Below are positions 6,571 through 46,327 of a DNA stretch of 47,915 nt, in pieces. Numbering within the stretch: the first letter of the stretch is position 1; every line of letters starts with the position of its first letter. Under the pieces are notes generated by a model, which saw only the letters and a program-made list of their open reading frames with translations, made no database searches and had not been told where the DNA came from. The translations under genes were made by a program, and so were the position numbers. This DNA is from Phycisphaeraceae bacterium (GTDB lineage: Bacteria > Planctomycetota > Phycisphaerae > Phycisphaerales > UBA1924), in assembly GCA_021299385.1 (NCBI GenBank), contig JAJTGZ010000027.1:1-47915 (forward strand). Direction: 5' to 3'.

Positions 6571-6899
6571 TTTTTACTCCAGAGGTCCCTCAGGGCCCGG
6601 AGGGGAATCTACTCAGAGGACAGTGGGCAGAGGTTTTCAGAGTGGTTTTGGGGGTTCGAGTTGGGGATGCCCTCGGCCCCAGCGGGGCCACGGGGTGTAG
6701 CCACGGGTGGAGCCCGAGCTTCGCGGGCGCAACCCGTGGGTCCCCGGCACACGATGTGGACCGCCCCGGCAGGGGCGGGGGAGTCCGCCGCCCCTGCCGG
6801 GGCGGTTGATTCAGGCCTCGCACCTTTCCACGGGTTTCGGCGGGGAAGCCCCGCCTCCACCCGTAGCTACAACCCGCAACCCCTTCGGGGTTGAAGACG
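6571..6899 (+). repeat. Composite hairpin repeat, copy A
   Basis: About 330 bp of stacked inverted repeats. It starts TTTACTCCAGAGGTC, runs through a GGCCCCAGCGGGGCC hairpin, the sequence GTGTAGCCACGGGTG pairing with CAACCCGTG, a long CCGCCCC...GGGGCGG palindrome (about 6767-6809), a second CACGGGTT/CACCCG stem, and ends with AACCCCTTCGGGGTT. Copies B (8249-8717) and C (28003-28516, inverted) share the same order of modules with divergence in between. It has no coding capacity of its own. It separates the methyltransferase from the amidohydrolase on the same strand. Confidence 0.85.
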
Positions 6900-8717: not shown

Positions 8718-8751
8718 AGAAAGCGTCGGCGATCTCTCTTGCCCTCACCTC

Positions 8752-8795
8752 TCGTCGCTCATCGCTCATCGCTCATCACTCATCACTCATCACTA
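8752..8795. repeat. Heptanucleotide tandem repeat (CTCATCR)n
   Basis: About six near-perfect 7-bp units (CTCATCG then CTCATCA variants). The far end includes the rlmN stop codon; read in the rlmN direction the repeat gives TGATGAG units with stops in every frame. Other copies: 12685-12715, 24406-24444 and 25702-25734. Confidence 0.85.
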
Positions 8796-10034
8796 CGCCT
8801 GTGCCTTCTTGCGCCGGTATTCCAGGTTCCCGAGTTGCCCGCACGCGGCCATCTGATCTCGCCCTTTGGTCCGTCGGCGTTTGACGTAGACGCCTGTGCT
8901 GGCCAGTGTGGTGATGAAGCGTTCGACGGTTTCCTCGTCGGGCGCGGGCCAGGGTGAGTCTTGCCGGGGGTTGTAGGGGATGACGTTGACGCAGCAGCGC
9001 AGGGGTGCGTCTGCGTCGCCCTGGATCCACTTGGCAAGCTCTCGGGCGTGCTCGTCGAGGTCGTTGACGCCGGGGATGAGGACGTACTCGAGCATGATGT
9101 GCCCGCTGCCATGGCGGGGCCAATCGGCGATCGCGTCGCGGAGTTTGTGCATGGGCATCGGGCGGTTGATCGGCATGATGCCCGAGCGGATGTCGTCGCT
9201 CGGCGCGTTGACAGACACGGCCAGGCCCAGGCGGTGGTAGCCCGGGGTCAGGATCAGCCCGCGAAGCTTGGCCAGCCCGTCGATCCGCCCGACGGTGCTG
9301 ATGGTGATCCGCGAGGAGGCGATGTTCGGCCCACGCCGGTCTGTCAGCACGTAGATCGCCTGTGCCACGGCATCAAAGTTGTCCAGCGGCTCGCCCATGC
9401 CCATAAAGACGATGTTGCGGATCGGAGCGCCCGCGTCCGGGCGCGTCAGCAAATGCTCGGCGGCGAACCACTGCTGGACGATCTCTTGTGCCGTCAGCGA
9501 GCGCACCAGCCCCATCTGTGCCGTCTGGCAGAACGCACACCCCATCGCGCAGCCGACCTGCGACGAGAGGCAGAGCGTGTACGAGCGGGTGTTGCTCTTA
9601 CCCATCATCGGGATCAGGACCGACTCGGTCTCGAGTGTGGTGGTTGTCGCAGGTGTGGTTGCTGTTGGTGCCTGCCCGGCGATGGTGAGGTTGATGGTCT
9701 TTGCCGTTGGCGTCCCGGCAAGGTCTTTGGGGACGCGCTGTGTGAACTTGATGACTGTCCCCTCGGGGCTTTCGCTGGCCAGCACCTGGTCAATCGGGGC
9801 GACGTGCGGGGCGGGTGCGGGCAGGGACCACTGGCCTGTGCGGAAAAACGCCGAGTATCCGCGGAGGGCACCAGTAGTGCCGTCGTGCACGGCACGGCGG
9901 GCGGCATGGGCGAACTCTTGGCTCGTCAGGGCAAGGATGTTGGCGAAGGCCTGCACGCTGATGATATTGGGGGGAAGACAAATAGCCAAATGGTCAAATG
10001 GCCAAATGCTCAAATGCTTCGATGATGGGTGCAT
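8793..10034 (-). CDS. rlmN: RlmN/Cfr-type 23S rRNA (adenine-C2) methyltransferase, radical SAM
   Basis: Radical SAM enzyme that methylates C2 of A2503 in 23S rRNA and A37 of some tRNAs. The family core is intact: the CX3CX2C cluster CAMGCAFC with the preceding mechanistic Cys seven residues before (TLCLSSQVGC), FMGMGEPLDNFD, ISTVGRIDGL, LAVSVNAPSD, EYVLIPGVNDLD, NVIPYNP and the C-terminal second active-site Cys in DQMAACGQL. The N-terminal domain is poorly conserved and Ala/Thr-rich. The first ~22 residues from the ATG at 10034 are encoded by an octanucleotide repeat, and the conserved-length protein would begin near the in-frame GTG at 9956, so the true start is doubtful. Its stop codon lies inside a heptamer repeat. 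Downstream it converges on the amidohydrolase. Confidence 0.93.
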   Translation of the reverse strand: MHPSSKHLSIWPFDHLAICLPPNIISVQAFANILALTSQEFAHAARRAVHDGTTGALRGYSAFFRTGQWSLPAPAPHVAPIDQVLASESPEGTVIKFTQRVPKDLAGTPTAKTINLTIAGQAPTATTPATTTTLETESVLIPMMGKSNTRSYTLCLSSQVGCAMGCAFCQTAQMGLVRSLTAQEIVQQWFAAEHLLTRPDAGAPIRNIVFMGMGEPLDNFDAVAQAIYVLTDRRGPNIASSRITISTVGRIDGLAKLRGLILTPGYHRLGLAVSVNAPSDDIRSGIMPINRPMPMHKLRDAIADWPRHGSGHIMLEYVLIPGVNDLDEHARELAKWIQGDADAPLRCCVNVIPYNPRQDSPWPAPDEETVERFITTLASTGVYVKRRRTKGRDQMAACGQLGNLEYRRKKAQA

Positions 10035-10086
10035 CAGTTATTTATCCATTTGGCCATTTGGCAATTTGACCATTTGACCATTTTCA
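9978..10086. repeat. Octanucleotide repeat arranged as an inverted pair (AAATGGCC family)
   Basis: Left arm of about five 8-bp units (AAATAGCC, AAATGGTC, AAATGGCC, AAATGCTC, AAATGCTT). A short unique centre follows, then a right arm of the complementary units (CATTTGGC, CATTTGGC, AATTTGAC, CATTTGAC). The arms pair into a long imperfect hairpin. It is AT-rich in a GC-rich genome. It overlaps the annotated 5' end of rlmN. Related copies: 19822-19847, 20258-20346 and a GC-richer variant at 16237-16266. Confidence 0.85.
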
Positions 10087-10296
10087 TCCCCCGCCCGACG
10101 CCGGCAAACCCGGGTGGGCCTCTTGCCCGTCCCCGCCTGTTTGCCGGCGTTGGCCCGCCAGTGCGTTTGGTTGCCCTTGCTGGCGTGCCGATGGTGCGCT
10201 CAGGTCTGCACGGCACGGATGCACCGCCACAAACCCGACCCCGCCCGATCAGCCACGCTCGCAAGGGCCAAGACGCGCGGACCGCCAAAGTTGAAA

Positions 10297-19893: not shown

Positions 19894-20271
19894 ATGGGCA
19901 CACCTTCGCGGTACGAGCAGTTTCAGGCCTTCCGCACACGCCTCAACGAGCGGATACTGGCCGACGTGCCCGGGCGTGTCGGCGGCACGCTGAACACCAA
20001 GCGGTTTTTTACACTCGACGGCGCGTGCTACAAGCCCGGCACCCTCGACGGCAAGACCAAGGAACTCCTCGGCCTCGTTGCCAGCATGGTCCTGCGGTGC
20101 GATGACTGCATCAGTTATCACATCGACGCGTGCGTGCATGCCGGGTGCAGCGATGAGGAACTGTGGGAGGCGTTCGACATCGCCCTGATCGTCGGCGGGT
20201 CCATCATCATCCCACACCTGCGGCGAGGGGTGGAGTTTTTGGACCAGGCGAGGAGCGAAATGGCCAAATAG
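19894..20271 (+). CDS. AhpD-like carboxymuconolactone decarboxylase family protein
   Basis: 125 aa. The AhpD-type redox motif is complete: C69-D-D-C72 followed by H76 in RCDDCISYHIDACVHAG, with KTKELLGLVASMVLRC before it and the helical SDEELWEAFDIALIVGGS after it. Proteins of this type form oligomers and act as peroxidase-linked thiol reductases; others are lactone decarboxylases. CxxC plus His favours the redox role. The N-terminus (RYEQFQAFRTRLNERIL) is helical. The gene is bracketed by octanucleotide repeats on both sides, and its last codons run into one (EMAK end). Confidence 0.9.
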   Translation: MGTPSRYEQFQAFRTRLNERILADVPGRVGGTLNTKRFFTLDGACYKPGTLDGKTKELLGLVASMVLRCDDCISYHIDACVHAGCSDEELWEAFDIALIVGGSIIIPHLRRGVEFLDQARSEMAK

Positions 20272-20346
20272 ACAAATGGCCAAATGCGCGTGTGCAACAC
20301 ATTTGGCGATTTGGCAATTTGACCATTTGGCAATTTGGCCATTTCC
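20258..20346. repeat. Octanucleotide repeat arranged as an inverted pair (AAATGGCC family)
   Basis: Left arm of AAATGGCC-like units (20258-20286), a GC-rich centre (GCGTGTGCAACA), and a right arm of CATTTGGC/AATTTGAC units up to 20346. It can fold into a long hairpin. It includes the stop codon of the AhpD-like gene and ends 30 bp before exbB. Confidence 0.85.
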
Positions 20347-23125: not shown

Positions 23126-24151
23126 CTAATGCCCTGAATCCTTAGGCCCCTTGGCAGGTGAAGTGGTGGCGGGCAACGGGAACTCCACCTGATAGCCGAT
23201 CCTCTTCTGGCCGCTGCCGAGGATCACCACGCCACGCACCGGGCCAGCAGTACCTGTGCCGATCTTCAACCGCATCGACAACTTCCCATCAACGCCCTGG
23301 GCATCTGTCAGCGCGTCGAGCAACTCCGGGCCGCCGGCAAAGGGTGCGAATTCGATGGTATTGCGACCATCTTCTTCTGCCCCACGAAAAGCCACCTCGA
23401 TCTCCAGCCGGCGCACTGGACCGGCACCGGACCACCGGTGCGATACCACCCTGTCGCGCTCCGCCGACGAGGCCACCACGGGCAACCCGGACCAGATCTC
23501 CTTGATCTCCTTGGCCCGAGCATCCGCACCTGCTACCGGCGTTGCCGGGCTTGGCTTGACGTCTTCTTGCCCCTTGCCAGGCACGACGACGCCGATCTTG
23601 GTCCGCAGCGACGCCTCCCCCGGCACGCACGACTCCTTGCAGACCAGATACTCGACATCGACGCCGATCTCGTGCAGCACTGGCTCACCAAGCGGCCCCC
23701 CAGCCACCGACGCATCCACCTCCACCGGCACCACCACGACGAACTTCCCCTCCAGCACATAGTCGAGCAGGTCCCCACCCCCAACGTGCCGGGTCGGCAA
23801 CGGATAGATCGGCGCACCAACCTTCAACCCCGGCGGGAGTTTCCACGTCATGCTCACCGGCGCGCCCGTGGCGTTCTGGCCCGGCCAGTACGTGTGCCAA
23901 CCGGGCAGCACCGAAAACTCCAGAACCACCCACCCACGCCCCCCCGCAACAATCGGCACCCCCGGCTGCAAGGGCATAAACGCAACCGTCGCCAGTTGCT
24001 GGTCACTCTCTTGCCCCCCCGGCTTCTGGCCCCCCGGCGCCACCGCCGGCTCAGGCTGAGTTCTCCCCCTTTGCACCCCATCGGGCCGGTGCGCAATCAC
24101 CGCCGAGGCTGTCGCCAGCATCAGCGCACCGATAACCCCGGGTGCAAGCAT
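23126..24151 (-). CDS. Periplasmic DsbD N-terminal-domain-like protein
   Basis: 341 aa. A signal-like N-terminus (VIGALMLATASAVIA) is followed by a Gln/Pro/Gly-rich stretch. The core has the pattern of the DsbD alpha domain family: WHTYWPGQNATGAPVSMTW, LPPGLKVGAPIYPLP, the beta segments GKFVVVVPVEV and VDVEYLVCKESCVPGEA. The Cys pair CKESC resembles the redox pair of DsbD-alpha/DsbC-like domains. There is no transmembrane electron-conducting domain and no thioredoxin domain, so it is a free-standing version. The gene lies upstream of the redoxin gene in the same direction, 50 bp apart, and a joint role in extracytoplasmic thiol redox is likely but inferred. Confidence 0.82.
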   Translation of the reverse strand: MLAPGVIGALMLATASAVIAHRPDGVQRGRTQPEPAVAPGGQKPGGQESDQQLATVAFMPLQPGVPIVAGGRGWVVLEFSVLPGWHTYWPGQNATGAPVSMTWKLPPGLKVGAPIYPLPTRHVGGGDLLDYVLEGKFVVVVPVEVDASVAGGPLGEPVLHEIGVDVEYLVCKESCVPGEASLRTKIGVVVPGKGQEDVKPSPATPVAGADARAKEIKEIWSGLPVVASSAERDRVVSHRWSGAGPVRRLEIEVAFRGAEEDGRNTIEFAPFAGGPELLDALTDAQGVDGKLSMRLKIGTGTAGPVRGVVILGSGQKRIGYQVEFPLPATTSPAKGPKDSGH

Positions 24152-24180: not shown

Positions 24181-24405
24181 GTTCACCCCTGGCGGGGAAA
24201 TTTGCCTCCCACCCTGCAATTACCCTTCCCTGACGGACCCGCGCGTCGGCAACGAAACGTTCCCCTTTGACCGCCCGCAGCTCTGGAGTGAGCAGACGGC
24301 CACGCGCCCGACAAGCGTCGGCGGATCGCTCGTCGTGCCTGGTGCGGGCGTGCCGACGACATCATCCTCGACCTCAACCGGTTCTTCAGCAGGTGCTGAG
24401 GAAGT
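24181..24405 (+). other. Possible coding remnant upstream of the tandem array
   Basis: The + strand frame through this stretch reads as protein-like sequence (SLTDPRVGNETFPFDRPQLW, then a Ser/Thr-rich tail ending AGAEEVV) that runs into a heptamer repeat. There is no start codon with support. It may be the 3' end of a broken gene or chance. Confidence 0.25.
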
Positions 24406-24444
24406 GGTGAGCGATGAGCGATGGGTGGTGAGTGATGAGTGGTG
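24406..24444. repeat. Heptanucleotide tandem repeat (GTGAGCG/ATGAGTG)n
   Basis: Five or six 7-bp units (GTGAGCG ATGAGCG ATGGGTG GTGAGTG ATGAGTG), same family as 8752-8795 in reverse orientation. It directly abuts the 110-bp tandem array. Confidence 0.8.
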
Positions 24445-24450
24445 AAGATC

Positions 24451-24850
24451 CTCACCACGCGGAGCGTGGTGGTACCCAGTACCCGTACCCGGGTACCACC
24501 ACGCTCCGCGTGGTGCCGCGTGCCGGGCGTGCACGCTTGCAACCAGTGCCTTGCCGAAGACTCACCACGCGGAGCGTGGTGGTACCCAATACCTGTACCC
24601 GGGTACCACCACGCTCGGCGTGGTGCCGCGTGCCGGGCGTGCACGCTTGCAACCAGTGCCTTGCCGAAGACTCACCACGCGGAGCGTGGTGGTACCCAGT
24701 ACCTGTACCCGGGTACCACCACGCTCGGCGTGGTGCCGCGTGCCGGGCGTGCACGCTTGCAACCAGTGCCCCGCCGAAGGCTCACCACGCTGAGCGTGGT
24801 GGTACCCAGTACCCGTACCCGGGTACCACCACGCTCGGCGTGGTGCTGTG
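24451..24850. repeat. Tandem array of 110-bp units, each with a nested perfect palindrome
   Basis: Units begin at 24451, 24561, 24671 and 24781 with exactly 110-bp period; the fourth is cut off after the palindrome. Each unit contains CACCACGCGGAGCGTGGTGG-TACCC and its reverse complement separated by a 13-nt loop (25-bp perfect arms in the first unit, one or two mismatches later). Each arm holds a smaller CACCACGC/GCGTGGTG hairpin. A conserved ~45-bp spacer (CCGCGTGCCGGGCGTGCACG...) joins the units. The array lies in the divergent region between the DsbD-N-like gene and ileS, ending about 70 bp before the ileS start. A GGTGGTACC in each unit recalls the T-box core but the following GCG is missing. 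Confidence 0.95.
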
Positions 24851-24920: not shown

Positions 24921-27900
24921 ATGTCGACCCCACCAACGACCAACCAACCCCCCCCGCACGCGGCACCACCACCCCCCGCCGAGAAAAAGGGCAACCCCTT
25001 CAAGGAGACGCTCAACCTCCCGCAGACCACCTTCGCCATGAAGGCCGACCTGGTCATCAACGAGCCAGCCTCGCTGGCACGCTGGGAAGCCATGAACCTC
25101 TACCAAGAGCTCCGCAAGCAGGGCCAGGGCAAGCCCCGCTTCGTCTTCCACGACGGCCCACCCTACGCCAACGGCAGCATCCACCTCGGGCACCTGATGA
25201 ACAAGTGCCTCAAGGACTTTGTCGTCCGCAGCAAGACCATGATGGGCTTTGACGCCCCGTATGTGCCAGGCTGGGACTGCCACGGCCTGCCCATCGAGCA
25301 CAAGGTCATGACCGAGTTGTCCGAAAAAAAACAACTCCAGCCCCTCCTCGCCCTGCCCGAGGGGCAGCGCAAGATGTCCATCCGCAACTCCTGCCAGCAG
25401 TATGCCAGCAAGTTCGTGGACCTGCACAAGTCGCAGATGGCCCGCCTGCTGACGCTGGCCGACTACCAGCACCCCTATTTGACGATGGCCCCGGCCTTCG
25501 AGGGCGCAACGCTCGATGTGCTTGCCGACCTGCTCGAACAGGGGCTGGTCTACCGCGCCCTCAAGCCAGTGCACTGGAGCATCGCCAACGAGACCGCCCT
25601 GGCCGAGGCGGAACTGGAATACGAAGACCGGCAGGACACCAGCGTGTACGTCGATTTCGAGGCCCGCGACGCCGGCGCGGTGTATCGCGCCTTCGGCTTG
25701 GAGAGCGATGAGCCACGAGCGATGAGCGATGAGCAAGAGGGTGTAGAGGATGAGGGGGATGACGCCGAGGGCGGTCAGTCGGCCAAGCCCATTCCCGGCC
25801 AACTCCTCGACCAGCGCCCAACCTTCATGATCTGGACGACAACGCCCTGGACGCTCCCGGCCAATGTCGCCATCGCCGTCAACCCGAAACTGACATACGC
25901 CCTCGTCTGGATCGACGGCAATGCCACCGTCATCGCCTCGGCACTCGTCGAAAAGGTCTGCCAACTCGCCCGTGCCGAGGAGGTGGTTGTCCTGGCGCAG
26001 ACGACCGGGGACAAACTCCTCGGGTTGTTTTACAACCACCCCTTCATCGACGCCAACAAGCACGGCCACAACGCCTTCCTCACCGTACCCGCCGACTACG
26101 TAACCACCGAAGACGGCACCGGACTGGTCCACACCGCCCCAGGCCACGGCACCGAGGACCACCAGACCGGCCTGGCACACAACCTGCCCGTCTACTGCCC
26201 CGTCAATGGCAACGGGCAGTACGACCAGACCACCCCCGATTGGCTGGCCGGCAAAAACATCTGGAAGGCCAACGCCGAGATCGTCGAGCACCTCCGCGCC
26301 AGCGGGCACCTCTTCTTTGACCACACCTTCACGCACAGCTACCCGCACGACTGGCGGAGCAAAACGCCCGTCATCTTCCGCTGCACCGAGCAGTGGTTCG
26401 TCGGCGTTGACCGCAAGATGAACACGCCGACGAAGACCGACGCGGGCACACTCCGCCGGGGCGCACTCGACGCCGTGGACCCGGCCAGGCCAGGCTCGGT
26501 CAACTTCATCCCCGAGTGGGGGCGCAACCGCATGCGTGGCATGCTCGAATCGCGCCCCGACTGGTGCATCAGCCGGCAACGCGCCTGGGGATTACCCATC
26601 CCCGCCTTCACCTACACCAACGCAGCCGGCGACGAAGCAACGTTCATGACCGCCGCCAGCACGCGCGCCGTCGCGGGCTATGTCCGCGCGCACGGCTCGG
26701 ACGCCTGGTTCACACGCACACCCGCCGAGCTGCTCAACGACTACAAACCCGAACTAGACCACGACATCCCCACCGAGCTCAAGTACAACTATCACTCCCT
26801 CCTCGGCACGCTCAAAAAAGGACCCGACATCCTCGACGTCTGGTTCGAGAGTGGCAGCTCGTGGAACGCCTGCATGCGCCAGCGCAACCTCGGCTACCCC
26901 GCCGACCTCTACCTAGAAGGCTCCGACCAGCACCGCGGGTGGTTCCAACTCTCACTGCTCACCGCCCTGGGCGCGACGGGTCAGCCCCCGTTCAAGGCCC
27001 TGCTCACCCACGGCTTCATGGTCGATAAAGACGGCAAAAAACTCAGCAAAAGCCGGGGCGACACCGTCGAGGGCCTCATGCACAAGCACGGCGCAGACGT
27101 CCTGCGCTGGTGGGTCAGCAGCCTGGCGTATGACAACGACGTGAAGGTCGATGACGCCTACTTCGCCACCGCCGGCGAGAGCTACCGCAAGGTCCGCAAC
27201 ACGCTGCGATTCATGCTCAGCAACCTCTACGACTACACACCGGCCACGCACGCAGCACCACCCCCGGCGACGCTGGACGCGTGGGTGCTCGCCCAACTCG
27301 CCGAGTTATCCAAGAGCGTCGTCGCCGCGTACGACCGGTACGACTTCCGTGCCGTGCATCTGGCGGTCTACGACTTTTGCAACAACACCCTCAGCGCCAC
27401 CTACTGCGCGGCCATCAAAGACCGCCTCTACTGCGACGCACCATCCTCGCCACGCCGGCGTGCCAGCCAGGGCGTGCTCTATGAGATCACCGGCACGATG
27501 GCGCGCCTGCTCGCGCCGATCCTCTGCCACACGGCTGACGAAACCTACCGCGCCCTGCTCAACGTGCCGGGGACCGACACCAAAACGTGCGTCCACCTGC
27601 TGCACTTCGCACACCCCAAGCACATCGACGCCGACCCGGCGTGGGAGCACCTCTTCGCCATCCGCCAGCAGGCCATGACGGCCGTCGAGAACGCCAAAAA
27701 AACCCTCGGCGTCGACAACCCCCTAGACATGGCCCTGACCCTGCCCAACCCCGACGGCACGCTCGACAGGTTCGACACCAACGAACTGGCCGACCTTTTT
27801 GGCGTTTCCCGCCTGCACACCGACAAGGCCGCAGGGCACGTCGCCGTCGCCGACCTGCGCGACCAGCCGATCTGCCAGCGCAGCCGAAAACGGGATGCGA

Positions 27901-27968
27901 CGGTCAAACAGCGTTCCAACGGCACCACCCTCAGCGACCGCGATGCGCAGGCCCTTGGCCTGTCATAA
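24921..27968 (+). CDS. ileS: Isoleucyl-tRNA synthetase
   Basis: Charges tRNA-Ile. 1015 aa from the ATG at 24921, which has GAGG 8 nt upstream; the longer open frame upstream is only the tandem repeat. Class I motifs: GPPYANGSIHLGHLMNK (HIGH, about residues 78-94) and DGKKLSKSRGD (KMSKS form KLSKS, about 703-713). The CP1 editing domain has TWTTTPWTLPANVA-type sequence (IWTTTPWTLPAN) and GTGLVHTAPGHGTEDH. The N-terminal NPFKETLNLPQTTFAMKA and LYLEGSDQHRGWFQ are IleRS-specific. Unusual: an acidic low-complexity insert in the editing domain (about residues 262-285) that starts in a heptamer repeat, and a C-terminus where the usual zinc-binding cysteines are reduced to one (QPICQRSRKRD), so the zinc finger is lost. 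Confidence 0.97.
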   Translation: MSTPPTTNQPPPHAAPPPPAEKKGNPFKETLNLPQTTFAMKADLVINEPASLARWEAMNLYQELRKQGQGKPRFVFHDGPPYANGSIHLGHLMNKCLKDFVVRSKTMMGFDAPYVPGWDCHGLPIEHKVMTELSEKKQLQPLLALPEGQRKMSIRNSCQQYASKFVDLHKSQMARLLTLADYQHPYLTMAPAFEGATLDVLADLLEQGLVYRALKPVHWSIANETALAEAELEYEDRQDTSVYVDFEARDAGAVYRAFGLESDEPRAMSDEQEGVEDEGDDAEGGQSAKPIPGQLLDQRPTFMIWTTTPWTLPANVAIAVNPKLTYALVWIDGNATVIASALVEKVCQLARAEEVVVLAQTTGDKLLGLFYNHPFIDANKHGHNAFLTVPADYVTTEDGTGLVHTAPGHGTEDHQTGLAHNLPVYCPVNGNGQYDQTTPDWLAGKNIWKANAEIVEHLRASGHLFFDHTFTHSYPHDWRSKTPVIFRCTEQWFVGVDRKMNTPTKTDAGTLRRGALDAVDPARPGSVNFIPEWGRNRMRGMLESRPDWCISRQRAWGLPIPAFTYTNAAGDEATFMTAASTRAVAGYVRAHGSDAWFTRTPAELLNDYKPELDHDIPTELKYNYHSLLGTLKKGPDILDVWFESGSSWNACMRQRNLGYPADLYLEGSDQHRGWFQLSLLTALGATGQPPFKALLTHGFMVDKDGKKLSKSRGDTVEGLMHKHGADVLRWWVSSLAYDNDVKVDDAYFATAGESYRKVRNTLRFMLSNLYDYTPATHAAPPPATLDAWVLAQLAELSKSVVAAYDRYDFRAVHLAVYDFCNNTLSATYCAAIKDRLYCDAPSSPRRRASQGVLYEITGTMARLLAPILCHTADETYRALLNVPGTDTKTCVHLLHFAHPKHIDADPAWEHLFAIRQQAMTAVENAKKTLGVDNPLDMALTLPNPDGTLDRFDTNELADLFGVSRLHTDKAAGHVAVADLRDQPICQRSRKRDATVKQRSNGTTLSDRDAQALGLS
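25702..25734. repeat. Heptamer repeat inside the ileS coding sequence
   Basis: Four units of the (AGCGATG) heptamer family read in frame as ESDEPRAMSDEQ. The unit variants present avoid an in-frame TGA. It is followed by further acidic codons (GVEDEGDDAEGG) up to about 25770. Confidence 0.8.
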
Positions 27969-28002: not shown

Positions 28003-28516
28003 AACCCCTCCCCCGAGGGGAGGGGCAGGGGTGGGGTTCGCACACGCAACAATACTAAGCAACAATACTAATAGAAGAGGTTCGCGGAGGTCGCGAAGGC
28101 TGGCGGTGGGACGCGGAGTACATGCACGGTGTGGTTTGCAGCGCGTTCAACCCAGCAGGGGTTGCCTGTCGCAGTGTTTCAACCCCGAAGGGGTTGCGGG
28201 CTGTAGCCACGGGTAAAGGCGGGGCTTCCCCGCCGGAACCCGTGGAGATGTGCGCGATCTCATTCAACCGCCCCGGCAGGGGCGGGGGAGTCCGCCGCCC
28301 CTGCCGGGGCGGACTACATCGGGTGCTGGCTCCCACGGGTTGCGCCCGCCAAAGCGCGGGCTTCACCCGTGGCTACACCCCCCGGCCCCGATGGGGCCGA
28401 AATCATCCCAAACCCACCCCCAAAGGAAACTCTCTGATGATCTCGACACCTCCGTCCGCTGAGTGATTGCCCCTCCAGGCCCTCCCTCCGGGCCCTCAGG
28501 GACCTCTGGAGTGAAA
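28003..28516 (-). repeat. Composite hairpin repeat, copy C (inverted), with GC hairpin repeat copy 4
   Basis: Fills the convergent gap between ileS and the OPT gene. Read on the minus strand it shows the module order of copy B: TTTCACTCCAGAGGTCCC start, GGCCCCATCGGGGCC hairpin, GTGTAGCCACGGGTG stem, the CCGCCCC/GGGGCGG palindrome of copy A, CCCCTTCGGGG, GTACTCCGCGTCC, GACCTCCGCGAACCTCTTCT and the GC hairpin repeat at 28003-28040. Conserved order over 500 bp shows a unit of common descent rather than chance hairpins. Confidence 0.85.
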
Positions 28517-45871: not shown

Positions 45872-46327
45872 ATGTCGAGCAAGAAGATTCAAGGGGCCGG
45901 TTCTGTGCCAGCGGGGACGTTGCTTGCGGGCGCGGGCGTTGATGGGGGTGCGCTCGTTGATGACGCGCTGCTGGCGGCGGTCGTGGGCGCCGAGGTGCTC
46001 GGGGCCAAGAGGCCGGGCAAGGAGCCCGACGGGGACGTGCCGGGCAAGGGCAAGGAGGAGGAAGAGGACCTCGACGACGACCTTGAGGACCTTGAGGACG
46101 ATGACGACGATGACGGCGACGATGAGGATGAGGACGTCGATGAGGATGAGGATGAGGATGAGGACGTCTTTGAGGATGATGAGGAAGAGGAGGAAGAGGA
46201 CGAGGAAGAGGACGAGCTTGACGACGAGACGGAGTTTGACGACGACGACGACCTGGATTACGACGACGACGACGACGAAACGCAGGAGTTTGGTGCCGGG
46301 GCGGACGATGAAGACAACGGCGTTTGA
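45872..46327 (+). CDS. Poly-acidic (Asp/Glu-run) protein
   Basis: 151 aa. Residues about 1-50 are Ala/Gly-rich (GTLLAGAGVDGGALVDDALLAAVVGAEVLG). From about 63 to 140 the sequence is almost only Asp and Glu with scattered Val, Phe, Tyr and Leu (patterns such as EEEEDLDDDLED, DEDEDVDEDED). GAGG 6-7 nt before the ATG at 45872 supports expression. The acidic tract is encoded mostly by GAC/GAT/GAG in period-3 runs, so repeat expansion may have shaped it. Such tails usually bind basic proteins. The next gene on the same strand, 38 bp away, encodes an arginine-rich protein. Confidence 0.7.
   Translation: MSSKKIQGAGSVPAGTLLAGAGVDGGALVDDALLAAVVGAEVLGAKRPGKEPDGDVPGKGKEEEEDLDDDLEDLEDDDDDDGDDEDEDVDEDEDEDEDVFEDDEEEEEEDEEEDELDDETEFDDDDDLDYDDDDDETQEFGAGADDEDNGV

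Follow-up and report, generated by a model that had tools for sequence, protein, structure and literature searches.

Tandem array upstream of ileS

The window, i.e., the whole stretch of 47,915 nt analysed here, belongs to a Phycisphaeraceae draft genome of 2.63 Mb in 111 contigs (G000). The 769-bp gap between ileS and a divergent gene with a DsbD N-terminal domain contains a tandem array of palindromes, with the following features:

23126..24151, minus strand: divergent neighbour gene, DsbD N-terminal domain
24451..24846, no strand: tandem array of four inverted REP pairs (eight REPs, strictly alternating) with three 47-nt spacers
24453..24515, no strand: REP pair 1; left, hairpin CACCACGC-GGA-GCGTGGTG and tag GTACCC, then a 13-nt linker; right (within the same coordinates), tag GGGTAC and hairpin CACCACGC-TCC-GCGTGGTG
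24516..24562, no strand: 47-nt long spacer, repeated at 24626-24672 and 24736-24782, found in the genome only at the array
24563..24625, no strand: REP pair 2, right loop TCG
24673..24735, no strand: REP pair 3, right loop TCG
24783..24845, no strand: REP pair 4, left loop TGA, right loop TCG
24921..27968, plus strand: ileS, isoleucyl-tRNA synthetase, start codon kept in the congeners G002 and G003

Tandem Repeats Finder placed the array at 24451-24846 with a period of 110, 3.6 copies, 96% matches, and no indels. The four unit starts reported in the first-pass annotation were recovered by a repeat search exactly 110 bp apart (24451, 24561, 24671, and 24781), although the fourth unit is incomplete and ends at 24846. 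In each unit there is a 63-nt palindrome with arms of 25 nt, followed in units 1–3 by the 47-nt spacer. The arms, described earlier as perfect or near-perfect, are 100% complementary in unit 1 (24453-24477 and 24491-24515) and 96% in units 2–4. The smaller hairpins noted within them are also real, each arm being an 8-bp hairpin with a 3-nt loop, so that the palindrome consists of two small inverted hairpins whose six-base tags point toward one another, with the 13-nt linker between them. Contrary to the first-pass annotation, the left arm varies, since unit 4 has TGA in place of GGA; the right arm does differ by one base between units, but the odd one is unit 1 (TCC), with TCG in units 2–4. 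The 25-bp stem is far above chance expectation: the longest stem elsewhere in the window has 19 bp, and five first-order Markov simulations gave 10–12 bp.

Tandem expansion with drift, as first proposed, is supported by the 110-bp period and by seven variable columns among the units, all of which fall within loops, linker, or spacer. No variable column was found among the 44 of stem and tag, against seven among the other 66 (one-sided Fisher p 0.024), which is only suggestive of constancy because the units are few and non-independent. We also considered the array as an N-terminal extension of IleS, as the frame is open from 24432, and rejected it because the period of 110 is not divisible by three, which shifts the reading frame from one unit to the next, and because the ATG at 24921 is conserved in the congeners.

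A dispersed family of inverted REPs

The array unit is a pair of inverted REP elements and no ileS-specific element. Each REP comprises the tag GGGTAC and a hairpin with a stem of 8 bp and a TCC loop. In G000 the core pattern gave 120 matches compared to 5 for the reversed control, and core plus tag gave 80 compared to none. Among the matches listed for the G000 stretches examined, at least 70 REPs with exact cores (a lower bound that counts only these) occur in 31 clusters, 12 of them single, 11 double, and 8 larger, the largest being the array at ileS with its eight REPs; a further core match without tag on contig C1 was dropped as chance. A genome-wide search for the 110-bp unit, as envisaged in the first-pass annotation, returned 124 matches, in which the long spacer occurs only at the array and elsewhere only the hairpin part is present.

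The tags of the 70 REPs are GGGTAC (62), GGGTAG (7), and GCGTAC (1), such that all have a tetranucleotide directly 5′ of the 8-bp stem with 3-nt loop, GTAC in 63 and GTAG in 7; GTAC is a variant of the canonical GTAG tag. A pyrimidine immediately precedes the tag in every REP, and another stands one base further 5′ in 64/70. Of 39 neighbouring REPs no more than 400 bp apart, 30 are inverted. The stem also covaries. Sixteen distinct variants were aligned (13 occurring among the 70 REPs, one further from G000, and two from G002); 97.7% of cells are paired, three pairs have changed on both sides, and the covariation score is 0.202, compared to 0.050 for shuffled and at most 0.023 for slid alignments. 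All four Watson-Crick forms of the second stem pair are present among the REPs. The family has the tag-hairpin layout, the dispersed high copy number, and the inverted pairs by which REPs and REPINs are recognized. In BIMEs the REPs alternate, as do the short and long linkers between them, and linkers of 13 and 47 nt alternate in this manner in the array.

REPs of the family lie both outside and inside genes. Frames with homology on both sides contain at least 14 of the 70 REPs and 7 of the 31 clusters, as found in ten frames spanning a REP or RAYT that were scanned with Pfam (nine of them again with NCBIfam), with three REPs each in leuS and mmeI and two each in dnaE, valS, prpB, and a carboxyltransferase gene. 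Those close to thiC and to a terminase gene are situated ahead of the recognized domain, and one frame on contig C21 matched no family in the profile scan. Such in-gene REPs have been described before, also in dnaE and tRNA synthetase genes (PMC3733652).

That the assembler collapsed or expanded the number of units is the least probable explanation that we weighed. The assembly is a draft and the 396-bp array is longer than typical short reads, which leaves the exact copy number uncertain, but the units differ at seven columns and similar clusters exist elsewhere, e.g., three units of 192 bp on contig C1.

Evidence for and against a role in ileS expression

The first-pass annotation had placed the array just before ileS (74 nt separate its end from the ATG) and proposed that it acts there as a cruciform, a protein-binding array, or a transcript structure. 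Control of ileS or of the divergent gene in cis, through protein binding, supercoiling, or 5′ leader structure, would suit this proximity and the strong hairpin potential, which was confirmed by folding (−36.3 kcal/mol and z −10.6 for the DNA of one REP pair; z −6.5 for the RNA of one unit), and REPs elsewhere have been reported to bind proteins and affect transcripts (PMC3733652, PMC2817692). A role tied to ileS is at odds, however, with the genome-wide dispersal of the element and with its occurrence both within and outside genes, and no core match was found within 1 kb upstream of ileS at any of 80 named loci (75 of which have at least 500 nt there), nor in G002 and G003. No Rfam family reached its gathering score on the array, and a scan for promoters and terminators detected no promoter-like or terminator-like site and no ileS promoter. 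We consider such control unlikely; if the array influences ileS or DNA topology at all, it would do so secondarily, and cruciform formation or protein binding at the array is possible as a side effect, by analogy with REPs elsewhere.

The best sub-threshold RNA match, Scr1601, scored 29.5 bits compared to a gathering score of 100 and was judged chance. By eye, a −10-like TACACT stands about 20 nt past the array, which we do not claim as a promoter.

A RAYT within leucyl-tRNA synthetase

Three Y1 transposase matches were found in G000: a stand-alone IS200-like gene on contig C62 and two domains that lie in frame in ValS (C87) and LeuS (C88) and match the REP-associated tyrosine transposase (RAYT) family. 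Against NF047646 (NCBIfam; cut-off 80), the genome scan scored 83.8 bits and a partial LeuS frame 79.5, and the LeuS insert matched TnpArep in PDB 4er8 with E 2e-6. The HVH form of the HUH motif is present in all 16 embedded domains examined, and the downstream tyrosine of the RAYT was read by eye in the translation. The LeuS frame runs uninterrupted through 1,221 codons with intact HIGH-type, KMSKS, and editing motifs, the RAYT being located between GAEIEF and LTVFTTRPDTLFGATY. No second LeuS frame was found in G000; ValS is also single there, split across two contigs. A mobile-element gene inside a tRNA synthetase is an unusual location.

The LeuS insert of G000 is bounded by TTTGGGTACCCCCACGCTCCGCGTGGGG and its inverse, and the RAYT is flanked by REPs of the array's family with their tags outward; the insert of the congener G001 ends in GGGGTACCCCGGACCTCCGGGCCGGGCGAA and its inverse. 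We examined eleven LeuS-type elements, ten in LeuS and one in miaA. On at least one side, nine of these have a tag (GGTAC, GGGTAG, or GGGTGG), a 7–9-bp stem, and a TCC loop, whereas the elements of G001 and G032 lack this arrangement by the test applied and have inverted ends of 30 and 29 nt. Tag and TCC loop are kept between elements, and the stem differs. Judged by sequence, the array's REPs are of the LeuS-RAYT type, because the tag and the TCC loop are common to the ends of LeuS-type elements.

The hairpins at embedded RAYTs are repeated in their own genomes. That of the G001 LeuS RAYT has 27 matches in G001, 36 in G000, and none in ten others, and that of G028 has 9 exact matches in G028 and 0–5 inexact ones in eight others. 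The hairpin bounding the G000 ValS RAYT has 93 matches in G000 and 5, 1, and 0 in its congeners.

That the repeat is MITE-like or derived from an IS, without relation to any RAYT, is very improbable. Dispersed palindromes may have other sources and the IS200-like gene on C62 could be one, but the tag-plus-hairpin layout and the array-family REPs at both ends of the LeuS RAYT speak against it, and the 3.3-kb locus around the C62 gene has only one weak core match, judged chance.

Contigs C83 and C103 of G000 (loci L023, L140, and L141) are very dense in a third REP family; since C83 encodes a GpA-type terminase, it is possibly a REP-rich prophage or phage contig.

Distribution among relatives

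Core plus tag was surveyed in 61 genomes (G000 and 60 relatives) and matched in nine: 80 matches in G000, 16 in G002, 11 in G003 (mostly degenerate), and one or two in six others. The congener G001, which is 55% complete, had none. Neither G002 (L034) nor G003 (L115), the two congeners whose ileS was found, has the array upstream of that gene. A record titled Cyanobacteria bacterium CYA (L053) has an ileS 72% identical to that of the source and is probably mislabelled.

RAYT/Y1 domains embedded in synthetases were found in 14 of 37 genomes surveyed, including G000; G002 has them in both LeuS and ValS. From the same survey, 14 of 16 long frames of relatives with RAYT/Y1 were LeuS or ValS, and two (G018 and G040) matched no family. 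The ValS insert is of a different Y1 type in G005, G044, and G047. ValS inserts of this type at loci L155, L164, and L165 have ACGAGCCGCG-type inverted repeats at their ends (in tandem in G047), and the type resembles class 3 as described in PMC6006769.

Scanning the order with the LeuS-embedded domain gave 66 matches in 54 of 301 genomes. Twenty further loci were picked from the 66, and 17 of these have synthetase motifs on both sides (5 LeuS and 12 ValS; four were checked by profile and the others by motif only). The other three comprise miaA, an RdgB-like gene, and one locus without identification; the RAYT shares an open frame with miaA in L185 (G005, contig C5) and with the RdgB-like gene in L184 (G020, contig C13). 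Two of the ValS cases occur in single-contig genomes (G099 and G093), which argues against assembly error.

In a tree of 27 domains, five LeuS-embedded RAYTs from five genomes form one group (99/99) and stand-alone RAYTs another (89/67), while RAYTs in ValS need two changes, because three ValS domains are of another type. This domain phylogeny shows the LeuS-embedded RAYTs as a specialised lineage and would fit either vertical descent or repeated insertion at the same site.

Proposed origin of the array

We interpret the array as tandem inverted REP pairs of the REPIN/BIME type with GTAC or GTAG tags that were spread by the LeuS RAYT and then grew in tandem, and give this reading a probability of roughly 85%. 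The LeuS RAYT would recognize the GGGTAC tag and the 8-bp TCC-loop hairpin on single-stranded DNA and would have inserted REPs between ileS and the divergent gene by single-strand transposition, which is proposed by analogy with TnpAREP, for which single-strand recognition of tag and hairpin and cleavage beside the REP have been described (PMC8266576). Copies of the 110-bp unit of REP pair and 47-nt local spacer may then have been added through slippage, or through unequal recombination involving adjacent REP pairs. Such events fit the spacer being local to the array, and tandem growth is supported by units that differ only in loops, linker, and spacer.

Several observations speak against an origin from the LeuS RAYT. 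First, the tags of close pairs face inward in the array, on C1, on C95, and in one C46 cluster, in contrast to the outward tags at the RAYT. Second, G002 has a LeuS with RAYT yet a modest number of REPs (16). Third, G003 has no RAYT match in LeuS and still has 11 matches. The second RAYT of G000, in ValS, could act on REPs of the array's family, and the 36 copies in G000 of the G001 LeuS-RAYT REP suggest that a single RAYT may act on more than one stem, or that REPs and RAYTs may be less strictly matched than we propose.

Comparison with known REP systems and implications

The family resembles the REPINs of Pseudomonas fluorescens SBW25, i.e., inverted REP pairs that are dispersed and also form tandem clusters with flanks, and in SBW25, as here at the LeuS RAYT, a distinct REP cluster lies beside each RAYT; the RAYT is a separate gene there, whereas here it is in frame inside LeuS, and the tag here is mostly GTAC, unlike that of SBW25 REPINs (PMC3116915). 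Tandem clusters with flanks were described as the most frequent higher-order arrangement in SBW25, where a second mechanism was suggested for clusters (PMC3116915). The array itself is ordinary, because tandem REPIN/BIME clusters are a known kind.

GTAG-REPs and REPtrons likewise have a tag beside a 5–13-bp stem and form dimers of inverted REPs, and GTAG-REPs occur in the PVC group, some inside genes; REPs within genes are thus on record, whereas here the transposase itself lies within a tRNA synthetase (PMC3733652). The layout is shared with the REPtron Sm of S. maltophilia (group 3 TnpAREP), with a 16-nt perfect palindrome, a 3-nt loop, and a tetranucleotide directly 5′; its tag is GTAG and its loop GCT, whereas the system described here, known from sequence, has GTAC (GTAG in 7/70) and mostly TCC (PMC8266576). 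Rickettsia palindromic elements are also short palindromes in frame within protein genes; the part of the account that we drew on mentions no transposase at their ends, whereas the inserts described here can carry a full RAYT domain (PMC3733652).

The likely source of the array, apparently a REPtron that lies in frame within an essential tRNA synthetase and recurs across the order, is a setting for which we found no description; in the open-access literature, no paper was found on a RAYT inside a tRNA synthetase, which is weak evidence of absence. A broader interpretation, which we favour with some reserve, is that in Phycisphaerales RAYTs reside in frame in the sole LeuS, with sisters in ValS, are bounded by their own inverted REPs, and seed REP populations. 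If so, translation within an essential enzyme would secure expression of the RAYT and guard it against loss, as inexact loss would break the enzyme, and the fusion enzymes would still seed REPs such as those at ileS. RAYTs have been described as single-copy, vertically inherited, and domesticated, with their long persistence an open question (PMC8049555), and residence in frame within LeuS or ValS would be a concrete, testable answer to it. Embedded RAYTs would escape REP surveys that consider only stand-alone transposase genes; unexpectedly long members were reported to have been discarded as fusions or annotation errors (PMC6006769). The apparent ileS element would be one site of a genome-wide mobile family.

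Other repeats in the window

Heptamer repeats of the GATGAGC/GAGCGAT type occur at 8744-8791, at about 24400-24445, and at 25703-25734, the last inside ileS, where it encodes part of an acidic insert. Near-identical palindromes at 6760-6806 and 28268-28312 (ACCGCCCCGGCAGGGGCGG...) represent another dispersed repeat. Inverted clusters of ATTTGGC/GCCAAAT octamer repeats are present at 9971-10092 and 20257-20345, and a long GATGAGGACGACG-type repeat at 46093-46276 is possibly an acidic coding stretch.
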